Shown one piece after another: positions 4,991-55,792 of a stretch of DNA of 64,000 bases. The position numbers were made by a program, and so were the translations under genes. The notes beneath the pieces are model-generated. The model made no database searches and was not told the origin of the DNA. It worked only from the letters and a program-made list of their open reading frames with translations. The DNA comes from Hominimerdicola alba 8 (GTDB lineage: Bacteria; Bacillota; Clostridia; Oscillospirales; Ruminococcaceae). Every line of letters begins with the position of its first letter. Position 1 is the first letter of the stretch. The stretch is taken from the NCBI RefSeq assembly GCF_000178155.2, contig NZ_ADKM02000134.1, positions 62,001-126,000 on the forward strand, read 5' to 3'.

Positions 4991-5670
4991 CAGCCTTCAC
5001 CTTTAAGGCGGTAGCCGATGCCCCATACCGTGTCGATGAAGTCGCGCCCGCCTGCTTTTTTCAGTTTGCTTCGCAGGTTGCTGACATGTACGTTTATGGT
5101 GTTGTCCTCATAGTAGTAGGTGTCGTTCCAGACGCTTTCATAGAGTTCTGCTTTGGTGTAAACTTTCTGCGGGTGTTCCATGAAAAGGCGCAGCAGCATC
5201 AGTTCTTTTGCGGTAAGTCTGACCGCTGTGCCGTCTAGCGTTACGGAGTTTTCGGTGTTGTTGAGGACTATCCCGCCTACTTCAAGGCTGTCAGAATGCT
5301 GACTGCCTGCCGTCCGCCTAAGGACGACTTCGATGCGCACCAGCACTTCATCAATGTCAAATGGCTTGATAATGTAGTCATCAGCCCCCAGCCGCAGGAC
5401 TTCCAGCTTTGTTTCCATCATCGACTTTGCAGAAATAACGATAACAGGTGTCTGCGAAGTTTCACGAATCTCAGCTATAAGGCGCTCACCGCTTTTGTAT
5501 GGCAGCATAAGATCCATCAGAACCAGATCAAAGTTTTCAGCTTTAAGCAGCCGTGAAGCCTCACTGCCGTCAAATGCCTGAACTGCTTCGTATCCGCTGT
5601 CGGTAAGCAGTCTGAAGAGTATGTTGTTTATCTCGCGGTCGTCTTCTATGACAGCTATTTTGTATTTCAT
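4990..5670 (-). CDS. OmpR-family response regulator
   Basis: 226 residues from the ATG at 5670, chosen because GGAG lies 6 nt upstream; the earlier ATG at 5676 abuts that site. The receiver domain has the acidic pair at Asp10/11, the phosphorylated Asp53 in LMDLMLP and Lys102 in IIKPFD. The C-terminal winged helix includes LTAKELMLLRLFMEHP and the OmpR-type recognition region NTINVHVSNLRSKLKK. It is the first gene of the operon with the kinase. The likely target is the ABC exporter downstream. Confidence 0.92.
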   Translation of the reverse strand: MKYKIAVIEDDREINNILFRLLTDSGYEAVQAFDGSEASRLLKAENFDLVLMDLMLPYKSGERLIAEIRETSQTPVIVISAKSMMETKLEVLRLGADDYIIKPFDIDEVLVRIEVVLRRTAGSQHSDSLEVGGIVLNNTENSVTLDGTAVRLTAKELMLLRLFMEHPQKVYTKAELYESVWNDTYYYEDNTINVHVSNLRSKLKKAGGRDFIDTVWGIGYRLKGEG

Positions 5671-5725
5671 TGTCATCTCCTGCCTTTCAGAAAGCATCAT
5701 ATATCAGATCATGTTCTCCGATGTT

Positions 5726-5828
5726 TATAGCAATCCGCCTTAAAATTCAGACAAAATCCAGTCACAAAATCCATATATCCGAGCTTTTGCGACTGGATTT
5801 TGTGAATTTAAATAGTTGGATTGCTATA
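5726..5828. repeat. 103-bp palindromic repeat, family A copy 1
   Basis: The ends are 11-bp inverted repeats (TATAGCAATCC / GGATTGCTATA). Inside are two 19-nt arms (5751-5769 and 5785-5803) complementary at 18 of 19 positions, around a 15-nt loop. The same 103-bp unit recurs at 19202 and 55671. It could be a palindromic MITE or REP-like element. It lies between the response regulator promoter region and the LRR-dockerin gene. Confidence 0.92.
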
Positions 5829-5906
5829 GTATAACATTTTTTTCGTGCCTTGTAAAGACCGCAAAAAAACTCCCGAATGTGGCAGCATTCGTGAGCGGGA
5901 GATGTG

Positions 5907-6083
5907 TTATTTTATGTGGTTATCCCGCTGATACATCACAAAAACAGCGGCTATACAAAATTTAAGGTGCTTGGCGTATATCTTTCCCCTGCCGCAGGCG
6001 GGGGAAGATATTGGGCGCTCAATTATCCTTTTGTTTACCGCGTTTTCAGTTGGTGTGCTAAAGGGATAGTCATATTATTTTAT
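5907..6083 (+). mobile_element. MITE-like element, family B copy 1, with 9-bp target duplications
   Basis: The element proper is 5916-6074 (159 bp). It starts GTGGTTATCCCGCTG and ends GGGATAGTCATA, with imperfect terminal inverted repeats. It is flanked by perfect TTATTTTAT direct repeats (5907-5915, 6075-6083), and the right copy covers the last codons and stop of the LRR-dockerin gene. An internal GC-rich hairpin (about 5977-6010) is absent from copy 2. No transposase is encoded; a 68-codon frame across it is judged spurious. Confidence 0.85.
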
Positions 6084-6992
6084 TTTTCTGATGCCTTTGA
6101 CATGTGCTGAAAGCAGCGATATGTCGGTGACATTGACATAGCTGTCCTTGTTGACATCTGCACGCCTTAAGCAAGCTGCTGAAAGCATCTTTATGCCTTT
6201 TACCTGTCCCGCAGCAAGCGAGATATCTGACACATTTATCCTGCCGTCGCCGTTGACATCGCCCTTTTTGTTTGTTTCGCCGTCGGTGGTGTCATCATCG
6301 GCGGGTACAGGGGTGGAGAATGTGGTGTCAGGTGTATCGGGGTCGAGTATCTCATAAGGGACAGACGAATTGACCGCATATATGTAAGCCTGCGAGTTCA
6401 TGAAACATTTCAGCTTGAAACCCTTTATATCCACGTACTCGGCGTTTTCGTCATCGCTTATGGTGAAGCCGAAGGCGGCTGTGCCTATCTCGCTGACACT
6501 GAATGGAAGAGTCACCGTTTTTAGTGAAGTACAGCCGAGGAATGCTTCGCTCTCAAATTCAATGCCGTTATCGGGTACTGTAAGTGATGATAGGGATGTG
6601 CAGTCAGCAAACGCAGCTTCGCGCACATATTTCAGCGAATCGGGCAGGACTACTTTTTTCAGCCCTGTGCATCCGCTGAATGCGCAGATGCCTATTTCCT
6701 TTACACCGTTCGGTATGGTCACGGAAGTTATGCCGTCAAGCATGGAGAAAGCATCATCTCCGATGGCTACGACTTTTGCGCCGCCTATCTTTGAGGGTAT
6801 CTCCAGTGCGCCATAGACTGCGTCACAGGCGGTTATCTTCACGCCGCCGCTGACTTTTTCATATGTGAATTTTCCGTAGTTTTCTGCCGATGCGGTGAAT
6901 GCGGTGTCAAGTCTGACTGTGGGTGTCACGGTATATCCACCGAAAACGAGTACCGCAGCCGCTGTGAAAGCTGCGAGTTTTTTATTCTTCAT
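6075..6992 (-). CDS. Secreted BspA-type leucine-rich repeat protein with C-terminal dockerin
   Basis: 305 residues. A signal peptide (about 1-36, ending near TASAEN) is followed by four or five LRR_5 units of the Treponema/BspA kind, seen as repeats such as IGDDAFSMLDGITSVTIP and ICAFSGCTGLKKVVLP (residues ~65-190). A linker rich in Thr, Asp and Pro leads to a type I dockerin (~243-303) with two Ca-binding loops, DVNGDGRINVSD and DVNKDSYVNVTD. It should be held on a cellulosome by a cohesin encoded elsewhere. No catalytic domain is visible, so adhesion or protein binding is the likely role. GAGG precedes the ATG. A family B element abuts the stop codon. Confidence 0.88.
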   Translation of the reverse strand: MKNKKLAAFTAAAVLVFGGYTVTPTVRLDTAFTASAENYGKFTYEKVSGGVKITACDAVYGALEIPSKIGGAKVVAIGDDAFSMLDGITSVTIPNGVKEIGICAFSGCTGLKKVVLPDSLKYVREAAFADCTSLSSLTVPDNGIEFESEAFLGCTSLKTVTLPFSVSEIGTAAFGFTISDDENAEYVDIKGFKLKCFMNSQAYIYAVNSSVPYEILDPDTPDTTFSTPVPADDDTTDGETNKKGDVNGDGRINVSDISLAAGQVKGIKMLSAACLRRADVNKDSYVNVTDISLLSAHVKGIRKIK

Positions 6993-7009
6993 TGAAAAGA
7001 CCTCACTTA

Positions 7010-7162
7010 TATTACAAATATGTGTTATCCCGCTGACATGCCATTTCTGACACTGTTTTATGAGCGGTCAGGATATTTGGCGGGAAGATATACGCCAACC
7101 ACTTTAAGTTCTGTAAACCGCTGTTTTTTGTGATGTGATAAAGGAATAAAATATATTACAAA
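7010..7162 (-). mobile_element. MITE-like element, family B copy 3 (inverted), with 9-bp target duplications
   Basis: The element proper is 7019-7153 (135 bp), in the opposite orientation to copies 1 and 2. Its minus-strand left part, CATCACAAAAAACAGCGG then GGCGTATATCTTCCCG, matches the inner left part of copy 1. TATTACAAA occurs perfectly at 7010-7018 and 7154-7162. It lies in the leader of the LRR-dockerin gene, just upstream of that gene's ribosome site. This is the most diverged copy. Confidence 0.78.
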
Positions 7163-7221
7163 ACGGATACAAGCTATATTATAACCGATATCCCGCCTTA
7201 TGTCAATTGCCGTAAAGACAA

Positions 7222-7258
7222 AAGAAAACCCGAAAACTTCGGAGTTTTCGGGTATTTT
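7222..7258 (-). terminator. Terminator of the GH30-dockerin gene
   Basis: Hairpin ACCCGAAAACT-TCGG-AGTTTTCGGGT with a stable UUCG-class loop at 7228-7253, followed on the minus strand by a T-rich tract. It lies 15 nt beyond the GH30 stop codon. Confidence 0.85.
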
Positions 7259-7272
7259 GGTCAAATATGGAG

Positions 7273-9027
7273 TCATTCGCCGCCCGATGTTTCGGCATCG
7301 GTGGGCAGTTCGTCGGTCGGTTCTTCTTCGGTAAGCAAAGCATCGGGAGAATAGCGAGGTGCGGGTTCAAGGCGGCGCTTGCCCTTTACCTGTGCGGATA
7401 TCAGCGAGATATCTGTTACATTTACACTGCCATCGCCGTTTACATCGGCGCGCAGCTGTTTTTCGGCGGAGAGCGGCTTGACTGTTTTCACATGGGCGGC
7501 TGCAAGGGACACATCTGTGACATTTATCGCGCCATCGCGGTTGATGTCGCCAAAAATGCCGCTGACCTTCTGCATGACTCCGCTGACTGTGAAAGTGGTC
7601 ACCGAGTTGGGGGCAAGTTCTGTTGAAAAGCCTGTTTTATAGAGTTTCGGAGTGCTTTCAAGCATCTGCCAGTGTTCGCCGCTGTCAAGTCCGCCTGAGG
7701 TGCGCACAGCCGCTACCTCGCCCGAACTGAGGATATCAAAGCCATCAAACGTAAATTTCACAGGCTTTTCTTCGGCGGTGCAGTTGAGCGCCACTATGTT
7801 GAGCGTACCTGTGCGCAGGTCGTAGGCGGCTATGGTGTCGTCGTTGACTTTGATGAATGTCTGTCCTGCGCGGAGATATCGGCTGAACTGACCGTAGGCG
7901 TAGTAGCGCTGTGTCAGTGTCAGCCCTGAATTATCGGACTTTTCGTGTACCAGTCCAAGACTGCTGCCGCTATCGGTGACTGCCTGATACATGACCCATG
8001 CGGAGGCTTCTGCGCGGGTGAGGTCAGCTATCATCTGTCTGCCAAGACCGAGTGCCGATGACATTTCGCCGGCATTTTCACCCGCTGTGTAAAGACCGTC
8101 AGCTTCGGTGATGCGAACGGGAGTTTCGTCTGCTGCCGAGATAAGCTGTTCTGCCGAAGCGGTATCTGTGCTGTGGATATTCACCTTATTAACGGTTTGC
8201 CGCGCTTTTGCATCAAGTGCGTTAAGACCTGCGGCTGCGGCGGACATGTCTGCTTCGTCAGCGGCAGATATCTGCACTGTGCCAAGTCCCTTGCTGTTGA
8301 GGGCTGTACGCAGTGAAAGTATCAGCTTTGACTGCGCTTTTCCCTGTGAGATATGGCAGCCCTCCTGCAACTCGCTGTCTGCTTTCCAGTGGAGCGATGA
8401 CGGTTCGTACATGGGCGCGATACTGTTTACATTCACGCCCGATGTTTTCAGTTTTGCCGCGATACCTGCAAGGTAGGTGGCGTAGTTGTCATAGCAGTCG
8501 TTTCTGATATTATCGCTGCCTGAGTAGACTGCACCTGCGGTACAGCCGCTTACGGTCATGAAATATGGCGGCGAAAATGAATATAGTTCCACCTTTGCAG
8601 AACTTCCCGCAGCTTCGGCAGACTTTTTCAGTGCATTTATCTGCGAGGTATCGCGGGCGGTGAGCGTGTAGCTGAGTTTTTCGGCATCAAGCAGATCTGC
8701 GTTCCACCATGATGGTATCACTGTGTCATTGTCGGTAAAATGGTTGTGTTCCGGCGAATCGCCGCCGCCGACATTATAGCGGATAATGTTCATTTTCAGA
8801 CCGTCATCACCGTAGAGAAGGTCTGCCGCCTGACGGCAGATATCGTTTTTTCTGCCGAGCCTTTCGCCCCATCGATAGAGGTCAGTGCCCCAGCCCTCAC
8901 AGACCGCGAAGCTGTTTTCGGCTGAAACGGTTATGACCTCCCGTTCTGCCGCGCCTGCTGACAGCGGAAGCTGTTCGGTCAGCAGCAGGGCGGTCAGCAT
9001 TACGGATATCAGTTTTTTTGCTATCAT
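7273..9027 (-). CDS. Secreted GH30 glycoside hydrolase with C-terminal dockerin
   Basis: 584 residues from the ATG at 9027 (GGAAAGG 6 nt upstream; an in-frame TTG at 9042 is less likely). A signal peptide to about residue 27 is followed by a GH30 (beta/alpha)8 barrel: CEGWGTDLYRWG, MNIIRYNVGGGDSPEHNHF and SPPYFMTVSG. These resemble the endo-beta-1,6-galactanase-like subfamily. The probable acid/base is Glu in APMYEPSSLHW, where the usual NEP reads YEP; the nucleophile is probably Glu in RITEADG. A beta-sandwich follows (~390-490). The type I dockerin (~495-553) has loops DINRDGAINVTD and DVNGDGSVNVTD, then a 30-residue acidic tail. It probably acts on plant or arabinogalactan side chains. Confidence 0.85.
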   Translation of the reverse strand: MIAKKLISVMLTALLLTEQLPLSAGAAEREVITVSAENSFAVCEGWGTDLYRWGERLGRKNDICRQAADLLYGDDGLKMNIIRYNVGGGDSPEHNHFTDNDTVIPSWWNADLLDAEKLSYTLTARDTSQINALKKSAEAAGSSAKVELYSFSPPYFMTVSGCTAGAVYSGSDNIRNDCYDNYATYLAGIAAKLKTSGVNVNSIAPMYEPSSLHWKADSELQEGCHISQGKAQSKLILSLRTALNSKGLGTVQISAADEADMSAAAAGLNALDAKARQTVNKVNIHSTDTASAEQLISAADETPVRITEADGLYTAGENAGEMSSALGLGRQMIADLTRAEASAWVMYQAVTDSGSSLGLVHEKSDNSGLTLTQRYYAYGQFSRYLRAGQTFIKVNDDTIAAYDLRTGTLNIVALNCTAEEKPVKFTFDGFDILSSGEVAAVRTSGGLDSGEHWQMLESTPKLYKTGFSTELAPNSVTTFTVSGVMQKVSGIFGDINRDGAINVTDVSLAAAHVKTVKPLSAEKQLRADVNGDGSVNVTDISLISAQVKGKRRLEPAPRYSPDALLTEEEPTDELPTDAETSGGE

Positions 9028-9082: not shown

Positions 9083-10363
9083 TTAATTGAATGCCTGTAG
9101 AGCCTTAAGTCTTTCGTCGTAAACGGTCTTTGCTGAGCCGTATGCGGCAGATGCTGTCTTAAGTTCGTTCTCCTTATCGCTGACGGTCTGCTTTGCGCCG
9201 TTGAGAGCGTTCTCGGCGTTTTTGTAAGCCTCTTCCTCAGCGGTTATGCTCTTGCCCTTGATGGTGTTGTTGTAGTACTCGTTGAATTTATCGGCAAACT
9301 CTGAAACGCTCACCGTTTCACCGGGACCTTGCTCTTCTGTGGCGAAGAGGATATTGTGTACGTTATTGTTCTTATTGCTGAAAGCGAAGCCCATTGCGAC
9401 AGCGTCATCTTTCATAAGTCTGTTGAAGTCATCGCCGCCGTTCTCTTTCTGCTCGTTGTACCAGGCGTCAAACGGGTCTTCATAGCCGAATGCGAGGTCT
9501 TCTTCAAGACCTGTGTTATTGGCACTCTGACCATTGTTTGAAGCCACGTCGTTATTGAGCACTGCCAGTGCCATCAGTCTGTAGCTTACCCTGAGTTCGG
9601 ATCTGCCCTCATCAGCCCTCAGCTGATTTGCCTTGTTCAGAAAATCTATGCTGCGCTTGACATTTTCTATCGAAGCGGCATCCTTTGCGTTGCCTGTTTC
9701 GACAGCGGAAGAATACTCGGATGCGTTGAAAGCGTTCATGCCATCGCCGTTTCCGATACTTTCATAGAAGCCGTAAAGACCGCGCTTATAGTTCTCGTTC
9801 TGGTTTGCATCATAGCCGCGCTTTACTTCTTCAAGTTTAGCCTTTGCAGCTTCAAACTCGCTCTGGAGCCTGTCCCTGTTGCCTTTTGCCTCATCGAGAG
9901 CCGCCTGTGCGCCGTCCAGCCTTGCAGATGTTTCATTCAGCTTTGCTTCGGCAGATGCCAATGCTTCCTGTGCTTTCTGCTTTTTGTTTTCTGCTGTATC
10001 AGCTTTGGAAGAAGCGGTGGTGGTTGCGGCTGTGGTCGTTTCGGTCTTGCGGCGGTTGTCCAGCTTTTCGGTGGACTGTGTAACAACAGGCGCATTTTCG
10101 TCGATCTCAGGTGCTTCGGAAGCATCACCGCCGAGAGTTGTCAGCAGGTCATCATCGGTGGCGAGCAGAGCTTCGCTTTCAGACGAACTGTCAACTACCC
10201 TTGCATCAGCTGCATGCGCTCCGCTTTTTTCGGAACGGCTGACCATTGTGGGATCCTGCTTCATACTGTACTTTACTACGACGCTGGTGAACAAAGCGAC
10301 CAGAACCACTGCAAGCCCTATCCCCAGCTTGATGTTATTATTTGCCACATGTTCATTTTCCAT
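9083..10363 (-). CDS. Membrane-anchored coiled-coil protein with CAP/SCP-like domain
   Basis: 426 residues. A single N-terminal membrane anchor (~11-31) is followed by an acidic, low-complexity stretch and a Thr/Ala linker (~105-120). Next comes a long coiled coil (~125-185, NKKQKAQEALASAEAKLNE). A globular domain (~190-360) carries features of the CAP/SCP superfamily: NKANQLRADEGRSELRVS and LAFGYEDPFDAWYNEQKE, with a VHNILFA strand near its end. A second coiled-coil segment closes the protein (~375-425). Some usual CAP His/Glu residues are not evident, so the domain call is moderate. It is probably exposed on the outer face of the membrane; function unknown. Confidence 0.7.
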   Translation of the reverse strand: MENEHVANNNIKLGIGLAVVLVALFTSVVVKYSMKQDPTMVSRSEKSGAHAADARVVDSSSESEALLATDDDLLTTLGGDASEAPEIDENAPVVTQSTEKLDNRRKTETTTAATTTASSKADTAENKKQKAQEALASAEAKLNETSARLDGAQAALDEAKGNRDRLQSEFEAAKAKLEEVKRGYDANQNENYKRGLYGFYESIGNGDGMNAFNASEYSSAVETGNAKDAASIENVKRSIDFLNKANQLRADEGRSELRVSYRLMALAVLNNDVASNNGQSANNTGLEEDLAFGYEDPFDAWYNEQKENGGDDFNRLMKDDAVAMGFAFSNKNNNVHNILFATEEQGPGETVSVSEFADKFNEYYNNTIKGKSITAEEEAYKNAENALNGAKQTVSDKENELKTASAAYGSAKTVYDERLKALQAFN

Positions 10364-19058: not shown

Positions 19059-19219
19059 TCTCGACCCGCGAACTTACCGAAAAGGAGTTCCTTGACACCA
19101 TGTCGGGCGGCATGAAGAATGTTACCGACACGGCTGAGCGGCTTACAGATATATGGGCTTATGCCTCGCAAAGCGGGGTGCATGAGGTGTTCGGGCATTA
19201 CTATAGCAATCCGCCTTAA
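19055..19219 (+). pseudogene. ORF translationally coupled to plsY, truncated by a family A repeat
   Basis: The ATG overlaps the plsY stop (ATGA). The frame reads 49 native codons beginning MISTRELTEKEFLDTMSG, with normal codon use, ending ...VHEVFGHY. It then enters the 103-bp repeat and stops after five repeat-encoded codons. Just beyond the repeat, a frame reads LDLGEKYGL then stop, a plausible original C-terminus if the repeat is removed. I do not recognise the protein. It may be a 55-60 residue small protein that was interrupted, or a larger gene that also lost its 3' part. Confidence 0.55.
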
Positions 19220-19304
19220 AATTCAGACAAAATCCAGTCACAAAATCCATAGATCCAAGCTTTTGCGACTGGATTTTGTGAATTTAAATAGTTGGATTGC
19301 TATA
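19202..19304. repeat. 103-bp palindromic repeat, family A copy 2
   Basis: Nearly identical to copy 1: differences occur only in the loop (ATAGATCCAAGC versus ATATATCCGAGC). The ends are CTATAGCAATCC and GGATTGCTATAG. It truncates the short ORF following plsY. No flanking duplication longer than the TA included in the terminal repeats is seen. Confidence 0.93.
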
Positions 19305-19341
19305 GCTTGATCTTGGTGAGAAATACGGTCTTTGATAGAAA

Positions 19342-19408
19342 TATCCCAATTTGGTTGTGTGCTAAAGGGATAATCATAATCAGCAATACACATCAAAATT
19401 GGGAGATA
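19342..19408. repeat. Relic of a family B end inside a long inverted repeat
   Basis: Positions 19353-19378 match the right end of the family B elements (GTGTGCTAAAGGGATAATCATA). No left half follows the usual structure; only TATCCC at 19342-19347 is present. The stretch can fold: TATCCCAATTTGGTTGTGTGCT pairs imperfectly with 19382-19408 around an 18-nt loop. It is probably a decayed or internally deleted element. The remaining bases between here and the DUF1648 gene show nothing else. Confidence 0.6.
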
Positions 19409-19506
19409 GAAATAAGTCTATAAAAGCTGACATGCGTACAGGGGCGCTGAAAGACTGCGCTTTTGTACGCATGGGTGTATCAAGGGATAGATATAGGGAG
19501 AACGAC

Positions 19507-20513: not shown

Positions 20514-20656
20514 ATATTTTTTGTGGTTATCCCGCTGACACACCACAAAAACAGCGGCTATACAGAACTTAAGGTTCTTGGCGTATGGCGCTCAATTATC
20601 CTTTTGTTTACCGCATTTTTAGTTGGTGTGCTAAAGGGATAGTCATAATATTTTTT
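20514..20656 (+). mobile_element. MITE-like element, family B copy 2, with 9-bp target duplications
   Basis: The element proper is 20523-20647 (125 bp). It starts GTGGTTATCCCGCTGACACACCAC and ends TGTGCTAAAGGGATAGTCATA, almost the same as copy 1 but without the internal GC hairpin. Perfect ATATTTTTT direct repeats flank it (20514-20522, 20648-20656). It lies just upstream of gpsA and pushes any native gpsA promoter away from the gene. Confidence 0.87.
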
Positions 20657-20687: not shown

Positions 20688-21692
20688 ATGGCAACTATTA
20701 CTATTCTCGGCTCGGGCGGATTCGGGCTCTCGCTGGCTATAATGTGCGACAATGCGGGGCATGATGTCACGGTATGGAGCAAGTTTCAGGACGAGATAGA
20801 CACCATCAACCGTACAGGAGAACTGAAAAGCAAACTGCCCGGCGTGCTGATCAACAAGACTATCAAGCTGACTACCGATATTTCGGCGGCTAAGGGGAAG
20901 GATATGGTCATTGTGGGCATACCCTCTAACTTCGTTCGCAGCGTTTGTGAGGAAGCTGCGCCTTACATAGACAAGGATACTATAATCGTGAACACCGCAA
21001 AGGGTCTTGAAGCGGGCAGTCTTAAACGAATGACTGAGGTAGAAAAGGAATGTTTTCCCGACAATATAATCGCGGTACTGACAGGACCTTCACATGCGGA
21101 GGAAGTTGCGCGCGGCATACCCACAACTGTCTGTACGGCATGCGAGAACAGGGAAGCGGCAAATTTCATTCAGCAGACCCTCTCGAACAACACTTTCAGG
21201 GTGTATGTGAACGATGATGTCATCGGCTGTGAGATAGGCGGTTCGCTGAAAAATGTAATCGCGCTGGCGGCAGGCGTGTGCGACGGTCTGGGGCTGGGTG
21301 ACAACACCAAAGCGGCGCTTATGACCAGAGGTATCCGCGAGATAGCAAGGCTGGGCATCGCGATGGGCGCTGAACGTGATACTTTCGCAGGACTTAGCGG
21401 CATCGGTGACCTGATAGTTACCTGCTGTTCGATGCACAGCCGCAACAGGCGTGCGGGCATACTTATCGGCAAGGGTACCGACCCTGCTGAGGCAGTAAGA
21501 CAGGTCGGCACTGTTGAGGGATATTCCTGCACGAAGAATGCTTACGATCTGGCTAAGAAAATGGGTATCGAGATGCCCATAACCGAAGAACTGGCAAAAG
21601 TGCTGTTCGAGGGTGCGCCTGTGGGCGAGAGCATAAAGAAGCTGATGAGCAGACCATCAAAGAATGAAACAGAAAGCCAGTTTTTAAGTTGA
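20688..21692 (+). CDS. gpsA: NAD(P)-dependent glycerol-3-phosphate dehydrogenase
   Basis: 334 residues, typical length. Rossmann loop ILGSGGFGLSLAIM at the N-terminus, then IVNTAKGLE, TGPSHAEEVARGIPT, the catalytic Lys in EIGGSLKNVIALAAG and the C-terminal VEGYSCTKNAYDLA. It reduces dihydroxyacetone phosphate to sn-glycerol 3-phosphate, the PlsY substrate. GGGAGG precedes the start. A family B element ends 40 nt upstream, and TTGACA at 20655-20660 has no -10 before the gene, so transcription may come from upstream or from the element. Confidence 0.97.
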   Translation: MATITILGSGGFGLSLAIMCDNAGHDVTVWSKFQDEIDTINRTGELKSKLPGVLINKTIKLTTDISAAKGKDMVIVGIPSNFVRSVCEEAAPYIDKDTIIVNTAKGLEAGSLKRMTEVEKECFPDNIIAVLTGPSHAEEVARGIPTTVCTACENREAANFIQQTLSNNTFRVYVNDDVIGCEIGGSLKNVIALAAGVCDGLGLGDNTKAALMTRGIREIARLGIAMGAERDTFAGLSGIGDLIVTCCSMHSRNRRAGILIGKGTDPAEAVRQVGTVEGYSCTKNAYDLAKKMGIEMPITEELAKVLFEGAPVGESIKKLMSRPSKNETESQFLS

Positions 21693-54835: not shown

Positions 54836-55675
54836 ATGAACAAGCTGATTCTGGCAAGGTTTGCCGCAGTTTTTACGGCAGGTGTGCTGACTGCCTGCGG
54901 CATGACGGGCAGAAAAGAAAATGGCGGTGATGACATCGGTGCATCATCGGCGGCGGCAGAACCCGTGATGATAACGGCAAAAGGTGTAAAGTCGGACTAC
55001 TCGGCGCTGTCGGGCGAGTGTCACGGTTACGGTCAGGGCGTGCAGGTGGACGAAAAGAACCGAACGCTGGGCGCGCTTGACTTCAACCACACCTACGGAA
55101 AATACAGTGCAAAAGCCATAAATGAGGACGACAAGAAGATAACACTGACTTTCGACCAGGGATACGAGAACGGTTATACTGCGCAGATACTCGATACACT
55201 GAAAGAGAAAAATGTAAAGGCGGTGTTCTTTCTGGTGCAGGACTATGCCGAGCGAAATCCCGAACTGGTACGGCGTATGATAGATGAGGGGCATACGGTG
55301 GCGAACCACTCGGTACACCATTACTCGATGCCATCGCTGAATGAGGAAACCTGCCGCACTGAGATAACTGACTTCCACGAATATATGAAAGAGAATTTCG
55401 GGGTGGAGATGACGCTCTTCCGTCCGCCGATGGGTGAGTTTTCTGAGAAGTCGCTGGCGGTAACTGCTGACTGCGGCTATGAAACTGTGCTGTGGAGTTT
55501 TGCTTATGCCGACTGGAATGCAGATGACCAGCCCGAACCCTCTGCGGCACTGGATAAGCTGAGAAAAGCCGCTCATGAGGGGGCGATATATCTGCTTCAT
55601 TCGGTGTCTTCCACCAATGCGCAGATACTCGGTGACCTGATAGACGGTCTGCGTGAAGACGGCTTTGAACTATAG
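54836..55675 (+). CDS. PdaA-like polysaccharide deacetylase lipoprotein
   Basis: 279 residues with AAAGGAGG upstream. Lipobox VLTAC near Cys20. The NodB domain (~100-279) reads TLTFDQGYENGYTAQILDTL, the form seen in PdaA/PdaC-type peptidoglycan deacetylases rather than the usual TFDDGP. The zinc His pair is in ANHSVHHYSMPSL, and FRPPMGEFS and YLLHSVS follow. It should deacetylate N-acetyl sugars of peptidoglycan outside the cell. The final codons ...GFEL-stop run into a family A repeat whose TATAG end supplies the TAG stop, so the original C-terminus may have been a little longer. Confidence 0.87.
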   Translation: MNKLILARFAAVFTAGVLTACGMTGRKENGGDDIGASSAAAEPVMITAKGVKSDYSALSGECHGYGQGVQVDEKNRTLGALDFNHTYGKYSAKAINEDDKKITLTFDQGYENGYTAQILDTLKEKNVKAVFFLVQDYAERNPELVRRMIDEGHTVANHSVHHYSMPSLNEETCRTEITDFHEYMKENFGVEMTLFRPPMGEFSEKSLAVTADCGYETVLWSFAYADWNADDQPEPSAALDKLRKAAHEGAIYLLHSVSSTNAQILGDLIDGLREDGFEL

Positions 55676-55773
55676 CGATCCGCCTTAAAATTCAGACAAA
55701 ATCCAGTCACAAAACCCATAAATCCCAGCTTTTGCGACCGGATCTTGTGAATTTAAAAAGTTGGATCGCTATA
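55671..55773. repeat. 103-bp palindromic repeat, family A copy 3
   Basis: Same structure as the other copies with about ten substitutions. Both terminal arms changed together: TATAGCGATCC on the left and GGATCGCTATA on the right, which keeps base pairing. Two changes in the right inner arm break pairing. The left end overlaps the last two codons of the deacetylase gene. Confidence 0.92.
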
Positions 55774-55792
55774 GAAGTCTGAATTTACAACA

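Follow-up and report, generated by a model that had tools for sequence, protein, structure and literature searches.

A high-copy MITE family of Hominimerdicola alba 8 that was very probably mobilised by an IS1595-family transposase

Three short elements in the DNA stretch analysed herein (64,000 nucleotides of contig NZ_ADKM02000134.1 of Hominimerdicola alba 8; hereafter the window) belong to a family of MITEs, termed family B, and sequence comparison suggests that they were very probably moved in trans by a transposase of the IS1595 family. The support comes from ends shared with an insertion sequence (IS), an equal length of the target duplications, pre-insertion sites, a high copy number and the occurrence of the family in related species. 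The likely partner, judged by its sequence, is an IS1595-family IS of approximately 1,022 bp.

Results

Elements of the window

A preliminary description, made from the letters of the window, had reported three elements, each flanked on both sides by a perfect 9-bp repeat that differs from element to element, and all three sites are as described. The features are listed below, with identities given relative to the 159-class consensus of family B.

5916..6074, plus strand: element 1, of the 159-bp class with a central GC palindrome; 148 of 159 aligned positions equal the consensus
5907..5915: left 9-bp target duplication of element 1, TTATTTTAT
6075..6083: right 9-bp target duplication of element 1, containing the TAA stop of the neighbouring gene (6075-6077, minus strand)
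5978..6011: central palindrome of element 1, with the core TTCCCCTGCCGCAGGCGGGGGAA at 5984-6006 (C3:67984-68006 with one mismatch in the genome-wide core search)
7019..7153, minus strand: element 2, 135 bp, a diverged and rearranged member with an inverted interior, situated in the 5' leader of the gene at 6075-6992 (minus strand)
7010..7018: 9-bp target duplication of element 2, TATTACAAA
7154..7162: other copy of the element 2 duplication
20523..20647, plus strand: element 3, of the 125-bp class, which lacks the central palindrome; identical to the consensus at 124 of 125 aligned positions; upstream of a gpsA-like gene (20688-21692) at a distance of about 40 bp
20514..20522: 9-bp target duplication of element 3, ATATTTTTT
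20648..20656: other copy of the element 3 duplication
19355..19377, plus strand: further family-B copy, a truncated and unpaired right end, adjoined by a family-C repeat fragment (19376-19412)

Elements 1 and 3 are the same sequence, to which about 34 bases, the GC-rich palindrome, are added in element 1. Element 2 is identical to the consensus at 89 of 132 aligned positions, including one 60-bp stretch at 85% (E 9e-15). The stretch 19355-19412, in which the truncated family-B end is fused to an end of family C, is apparently a chimera. No transposase of their own is present in the elements, and no match to PF01609, PF12762 or the IS1595 N-terminus, the families searched, was observed on contig C3, in agreement with the earlier statements that the elements are non-autonomous and that the window lacks a transposase.

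Elements 1 and 2 flank a single minus-strand gene (6075-6992), whose product is a dockerin protein with leucine-rich repeats. Element 1 immediately follows the stop codon of this gene, and the TAA falls within the gene-side copy of the duplication, so the insertion at a stop codon noted previously has spared the protein. The proposed insertion in a leader was also borne out: element 2 lies between a 12/12 match to the promoter consensus (7206-7178, minus strand) and the start codon at 6992.

Abundance and distribution

The preliminary description counted three copies, which is correct for the window and represents the window's share of a much larger family: two estimates place the number of family-B copies in the 4.05-Mb genome (136 contigs) at roughly 160 to 240. 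The lower estimate was obtained using a general end pattern fitting both the IS and the MITE, with 316 matches in this genome and none in the control, corresponding to approximately 158 two-ended elements. The higher estimate, approximately 236, was scaled from 27 paired elements in a 464-kb sample comprising the window and parts of contigs C7 and C75; a further 22 end matches in this sample were unpaired. The window supplies two of the 27, as the divergence of element 2 keeps it from matching the end pattern. In the reversed 464-kb sequence, used as a chance control, neither end pattern had a match, and thus these elements do not reflect chance. With up to three mismatches allowed, the left end pattern had 415 matches (48 for the reversed pattern) and the right end pattern 188 (4 for the reversed pattern) in the whole genome. 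A search with the 159-bp element revealed at least 71 matches, a floor for which the best 40 of 239 first-look candidates were scored: 40 were long (at least 131 bases; 38 nearly full length) and 31 were short, many of the latter reflecting the palindrome matching in inverse.

Outside this genome, the 125-bp form had matches in 8 of 41 genomes, all of the same genus. The general end pattern, whose counts pool IS ends and MITE ends, was found at least once in 16 of 29 genomes of the genus and was absent from 13, and the control pattern had a single match across all 29. The highest count was obtained in the relative G024 (637, about twice the 316 of the present genome), followed by G020 (147), G023, which is Ruminococcus albus 7 (133), G043 (64), G005 (36), G002 (20) and G012 (14), with at most six in each of eight others. 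The 159-bp element had no match among plasmid records, nor the 125-bp element among phage records, in collections that may omit the records of this genome.

Target duplications and pre-insertion sites

For the 27 paired elements, 12 frames were tried for the duplication, and the best is given here. The 9-bp flanks were identical in 11 of the 27 and agreed at eight or more of nine bases in 18, versus 7 of 702 cross-paired flanks; a clear duplication was missing at the remaining nine. In the frame of the preliminary description, the corresponding values were 9 of 27, 15 of 27 and 3 of 702, and the left 9-mers were 88% A+T. The frame of the IS (C/ATGG...CCAT/) places the duplication one base further left than that frame.

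Pre-insertion sites supported the model in three cases, one reconstructed allelic site and two paralogous sites. The allelic case concerns element 3. At the orthologous position of 20523 in G024 (contig C1), the place of element 3 is taken by a family-C repeat of 48 bp, whose duplication, TTTTTTGA, measures 8 bp. When element 3 and one 9-mer were removed from the window, and the 48-bp repeat and its 8-mer from G024, the two sequences were identical at 95 of 95 bases; this site is reconstructed from both sides, with no bare site in hand. By these alignments, the same AT-rich spot was apparently entered by two different MITEs in two lineages. The paralogous cases are two copies (L012 and L020) situated within a family-A repeat, the two 9-mers of each agreeing at eight of nine bases. 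After removal of the element and nine bases, the family-A host aligned without gaps to intact, observed copies over 104-105 bp at up to 97%. Among the sites examined, paired 9-mers without an element between them were not observed.

At six further G024 sites, no element could be made out and the sequence was too diverged for a clean empty site, as at the G024 counterparts of elements 1 and 2. Four sites in one 20-kb stretch, compared by eye with G024 and G002, lacked the same element and yielded no clean single-copy site; one of them in G024 retains a short stretch that is possibly a decayed end. Conversely, G024 carries an element with the same type of ends and a near-perfect 9-bp duplication at approximately 9335-9495 of locus L101 on its contig C1, orthologous to about 12.9 kb of the window, where it is absent; the flanks there were also too diverged to count as a clean site. 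The earlier reading of a MITE family with independent transpositions is supported, also by the two checks that it had named: many further copies exist, and the sites examined include none with paired 9-mers and no element.

An IS1595-family partner

An IS with matching terminal repeats was found: at each of its two termini, 18-25 bp match the element ends at 87-94%. Its transposase contains Zn_ribbon_IS1595 (PF12760, 8e-11) and DDE_Tnp_IS1595 (PF12762, ISXO2-like, 6e-21), both above the curated cut-off. Among 61 genomes searched with the N-terminal region of the transposase (63 residues), 6 had matches, 46 in total. R. albus 7 accounts for 31 of these, and its IS gene on NC_014824.1 is annotated as an IS1595 family transposase. 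In 4 of the 7 short-element stretches examined in R. albus 7, one end shares 22 identical bases with an IS end.

Duplications of the IS were scored at fetched loci only, namely 30 loci for the 46 N-terminal matches and 8 loci from the domain search. These yielded 20 end pairs, with an exact 9-bp duplication in 8, an exact 8-bp duplication with a one-base shift in 5 and none in 7; one of the last was a pairing with a neighbouring end and was dropped. Of the 19 copies retained, 13 (8 of them perfect) had at least eight of nine duplication bases in agreement, versus 10 of 342 cross-pairs, and a clear duplication was missing at 6. An 8-bp duplication is typical of the IS1595 family, and the commonest exact length here, 9 bp, falls within the 7-9 bp range given for the IS1016 subgroup rather than at that typical value.

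Beyond the ends, the longest match between the MITE interior and the IS was 14 bases (93%, E 0.09), which does not demonstrate an origin of family B by internal deletion of the IS. In the relative G001, ends of the element type surround the start of an IS1595-type transposase gene; one such place is a 454-bp, internally deleted IS1595 element (contig C183, L044) with two left-type ends and the gene start, plausibly a step towards a MITE.

In the genome of H. alba 8 itself, the domain search revealed two IS1595 DDE regions, both broken and both within C113:9000-20000 (L102). One copy lacks the left end and the zinc ribbon, and its start is fused to an unrelated frame, presumably an IS66 accessory protein by its appearance, for which Pfam gave no match. 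In the other, a left end and an N-terminal part containing an in-frame stop are separated from the C-terminal part by the transposase and IstB pair of an IS21-type element. No intact IS1595 partner was found in this draft genome, from which a repeated intact IS could be missing. Since both copies are broken, family B may be stranded or dependent on the re-entry of an active IS. In the MITE-rich draft genome of G024, with the most end matches, a single IS1595 C-terminal piece was found at the start of a contig, and the IS1595 search revealed none in the drafts G002 and G020. In R. albus 7, by contrast, the IS is present in many copies; the spacing of at least 60 of the 133 end matches resembles that of IS ends, and its MITE ends are therefore fewer than the count implies. 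This contrast between an IS-rich R. albus 7 and MITE-rich genomes in which no intact IS was found is no more than suggestive, as it involves single and mostly draft genomes per species.

Genomic context, folding and alternative explanations

The preliminary description had pointed to IS4/IS10-like elements as the source of the transposase, and a mobilisation by this type or by another DDE_Tnp_1 transposase was considered. The argument in its favour is the length of the duplication alone, since 9-bp duplications are produced by IS10 and IS50. The genome contains two PF01609 genes, and neither locus (2,497 and 2,328 bp) has family-B ends at up to seven mismatches; the matching ends surround an IS1595-type gene instead. 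This explanation is consequently very improbable, and the IS4/IS10 lead was abandoned.

Another explanation is that the elements now serve as intergenic hairpins, as RNA leaders or 3' ends or in a REP-like manner, and are under selection. The 125-bp form is predicted to pair over nearly its whole length at approximately -43 kcal/mol, and element 1, similarly close to full length, at approximately -63 kcal/mol (values without a shuffle control); element 2 has no end-to-end fold, with approximately -30 and -25 kcal/mol on its two strands. Moreover, 18 of the 27 sampled elements touch no called ORF, in sequence of which 86-88% is called coding under a simple ORF rule, possibly inflated by ORFs that arise from the repeats themselves; among the others, the overlap is at most 15% in two, about a third in two and more than half in five. 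The positions of element 1 just behind a stop codon and element 2 in a leader are also in keeping with such a role. However, AT-rich targets together with selection against gene loss would also yield an intergenic bias. The duplications differ from site to site and pre-insertion sites exist, and the positions are not fixed across species, as the G024 orthologue of the element 3 locus lacks the element and its counterparts of the other two sites show none that is recognisable. The orientation of neighbouring genes (11 tandem, 6 convergent and 5 divergent) resembles that of background gaps (144, 45 and 44), with no preference evident for the sampled elements from these raw counts. All Rfam families scored below the gathering threshold over the window; four weak sub-threshold matches in 5650-7250 overlap no family-B element. 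Taken together, selection for a hairpin function appears improbable, somewhat less so than the IS4/IS10 explanation, and mobilisation by an IS1595-family transposase remains the preferred reading.

The central hairpin was also considered as an intrinsic terminator. On either strand, however, its T-run is at the 5' side, so that a standard terminator is not supported; a terminator scan of 5700-7300 revealed no terminator-like site inside elements 1 or 2.

A palindrome shared among MITE families

The palindrome core TTCCCCCGCCGCAGGCGGGGGAA (up to two mismatches) was observed in 9 of the 10 genomes searched, with 334 matches in G024 and 94 in the present genome, a count in which at least one site was tallied on both strands; the reversed pattern had none. 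Close matches to the 17-base core (up to one mismatch) number 12 in the 464-kb sample, and all of them lie within MITE-type repeats: 7 in paired family-B elements, 2 in unpaired B-like ones and 3 in family C or a degenerate relative. The ends of family C, ATCCCAATTTGG, are unrelated to those of family B, and its duplications are 8 bp at four copies (computed at the G024 site and read by eye at three). The MITEs of R. albus 7 combine the same core and IS1595-type ends with other arms. That this palindrome is a transferable or selected module across different MITE families is a tentative proposal, which we regard as possible and rather doubtful. It may spread among MITEs through palindrome-templated copying or nested insertion, or may be retained if its hairpin favours the element or limits the harm to the host. 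Five of 29 aligned copies of the 159 class (30 loci from the 159-bp search minus the partial L029) have the loop TGC in place of its reverse complement, GCA, with two kinds of stem, which fits a flipping of the palindrome tip.

Family A is a separate repeat of about 104 bp with ends TATAGCAATCC...GGATTGCTATA, present in the window at 5726-5829, 19202-19305 and 55671-55774. It is frequent in the genome: in the 464-kb sample, 44 blast rows reached 95 nt or more, in which many copies appear twice since the repeat is palindromic. Its ends hint at a TA duplication, as for the IS630/Tc1 type. Nested family-A copies, in both orientations, were observed in 4 of the 27 sampled family-B elements:

C7:123885-124097
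C75:83235-83483
C75:114109-114309
C75:133074-133298

The composites at C7:123885 and C75:114109 have perfect 9-bp duplications of their own, and thus may have moved as a unit.

Discussion

Herein, we propose that family B spread by the following route, which is drawn from the shared ends and duplications. The IS1595 transposase would bind the terminal repeat of about 23 bp (TGGTTATCCC..T.ACACACCAC), cut both ends and insert the element at a staggered cut of 9 bp in AT-rich DNA, and repair would convert this cut into the duplication. The spread of the elements probably dates to the presence of an active IS1595. If transcribed, the 125- and 159-bp forms would each make one long hairpin.

Bacterial genomes with many short intergenic hairpins are familiar from the high-copy MITEs known as Correia elements and ERIC, which have other terminal repeats and other partners than family B. 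The IS1595-family IS of R. albus 7 (NC_014824.1) has terminal repeats and a duplication length as in the MITE; unlike the MITE, it encodes a transposase, and its interior is essentially unrelated. A short element tied to an IS1595-family IS is also listed for the archaeon Haloquadratum walsbyi, where the MITE associated with ISHwa6 has 165 bp, 25-bp inverted repeats, 7 copies and 8-bp direct repeats (Table 4, PMC3852290), compared with the 9-bp repeats and the far higher estimated copy number, 160-240, observed here. AT-rich target duplications are described for the IS1016 subgroup of IS1595, with lengths of 7-9 bp for IS1016 elements other than ISApl4 (PMC12561309). The same source gives ISApl4 as 712 bp with 8-bp direct and 14-bp inverted repeats, whereas the Ruminococcus IS has approximately 1,022 bp and a zinc-ribbon domain.

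No published account of such a Ruminococcus MITE was present among the literature matches listed, most subscription papers being outside the search. Family B is most likely of a kind already known, an IS1595-dependent MITE, as a very abundant family. Less ordinary are the copy number, the failure to find an intact partner in the MITE-rich genomes and a GC-rich palindrome common to several MITE families, one of them with unrelated ends.

With the present results, one of the most frequent repeats of these Ruminococcus genomes, otherwise unexplained intergenic DNA, has a likely partner. Numerous IS copies in R. albus 7 have an open transposase frame, whereas only broken copies, pieces or none were observed in the MITE-rich genomes examined. 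This contrast makes it testable, within one genus, whether MITEs outlast or burden their parent IS.
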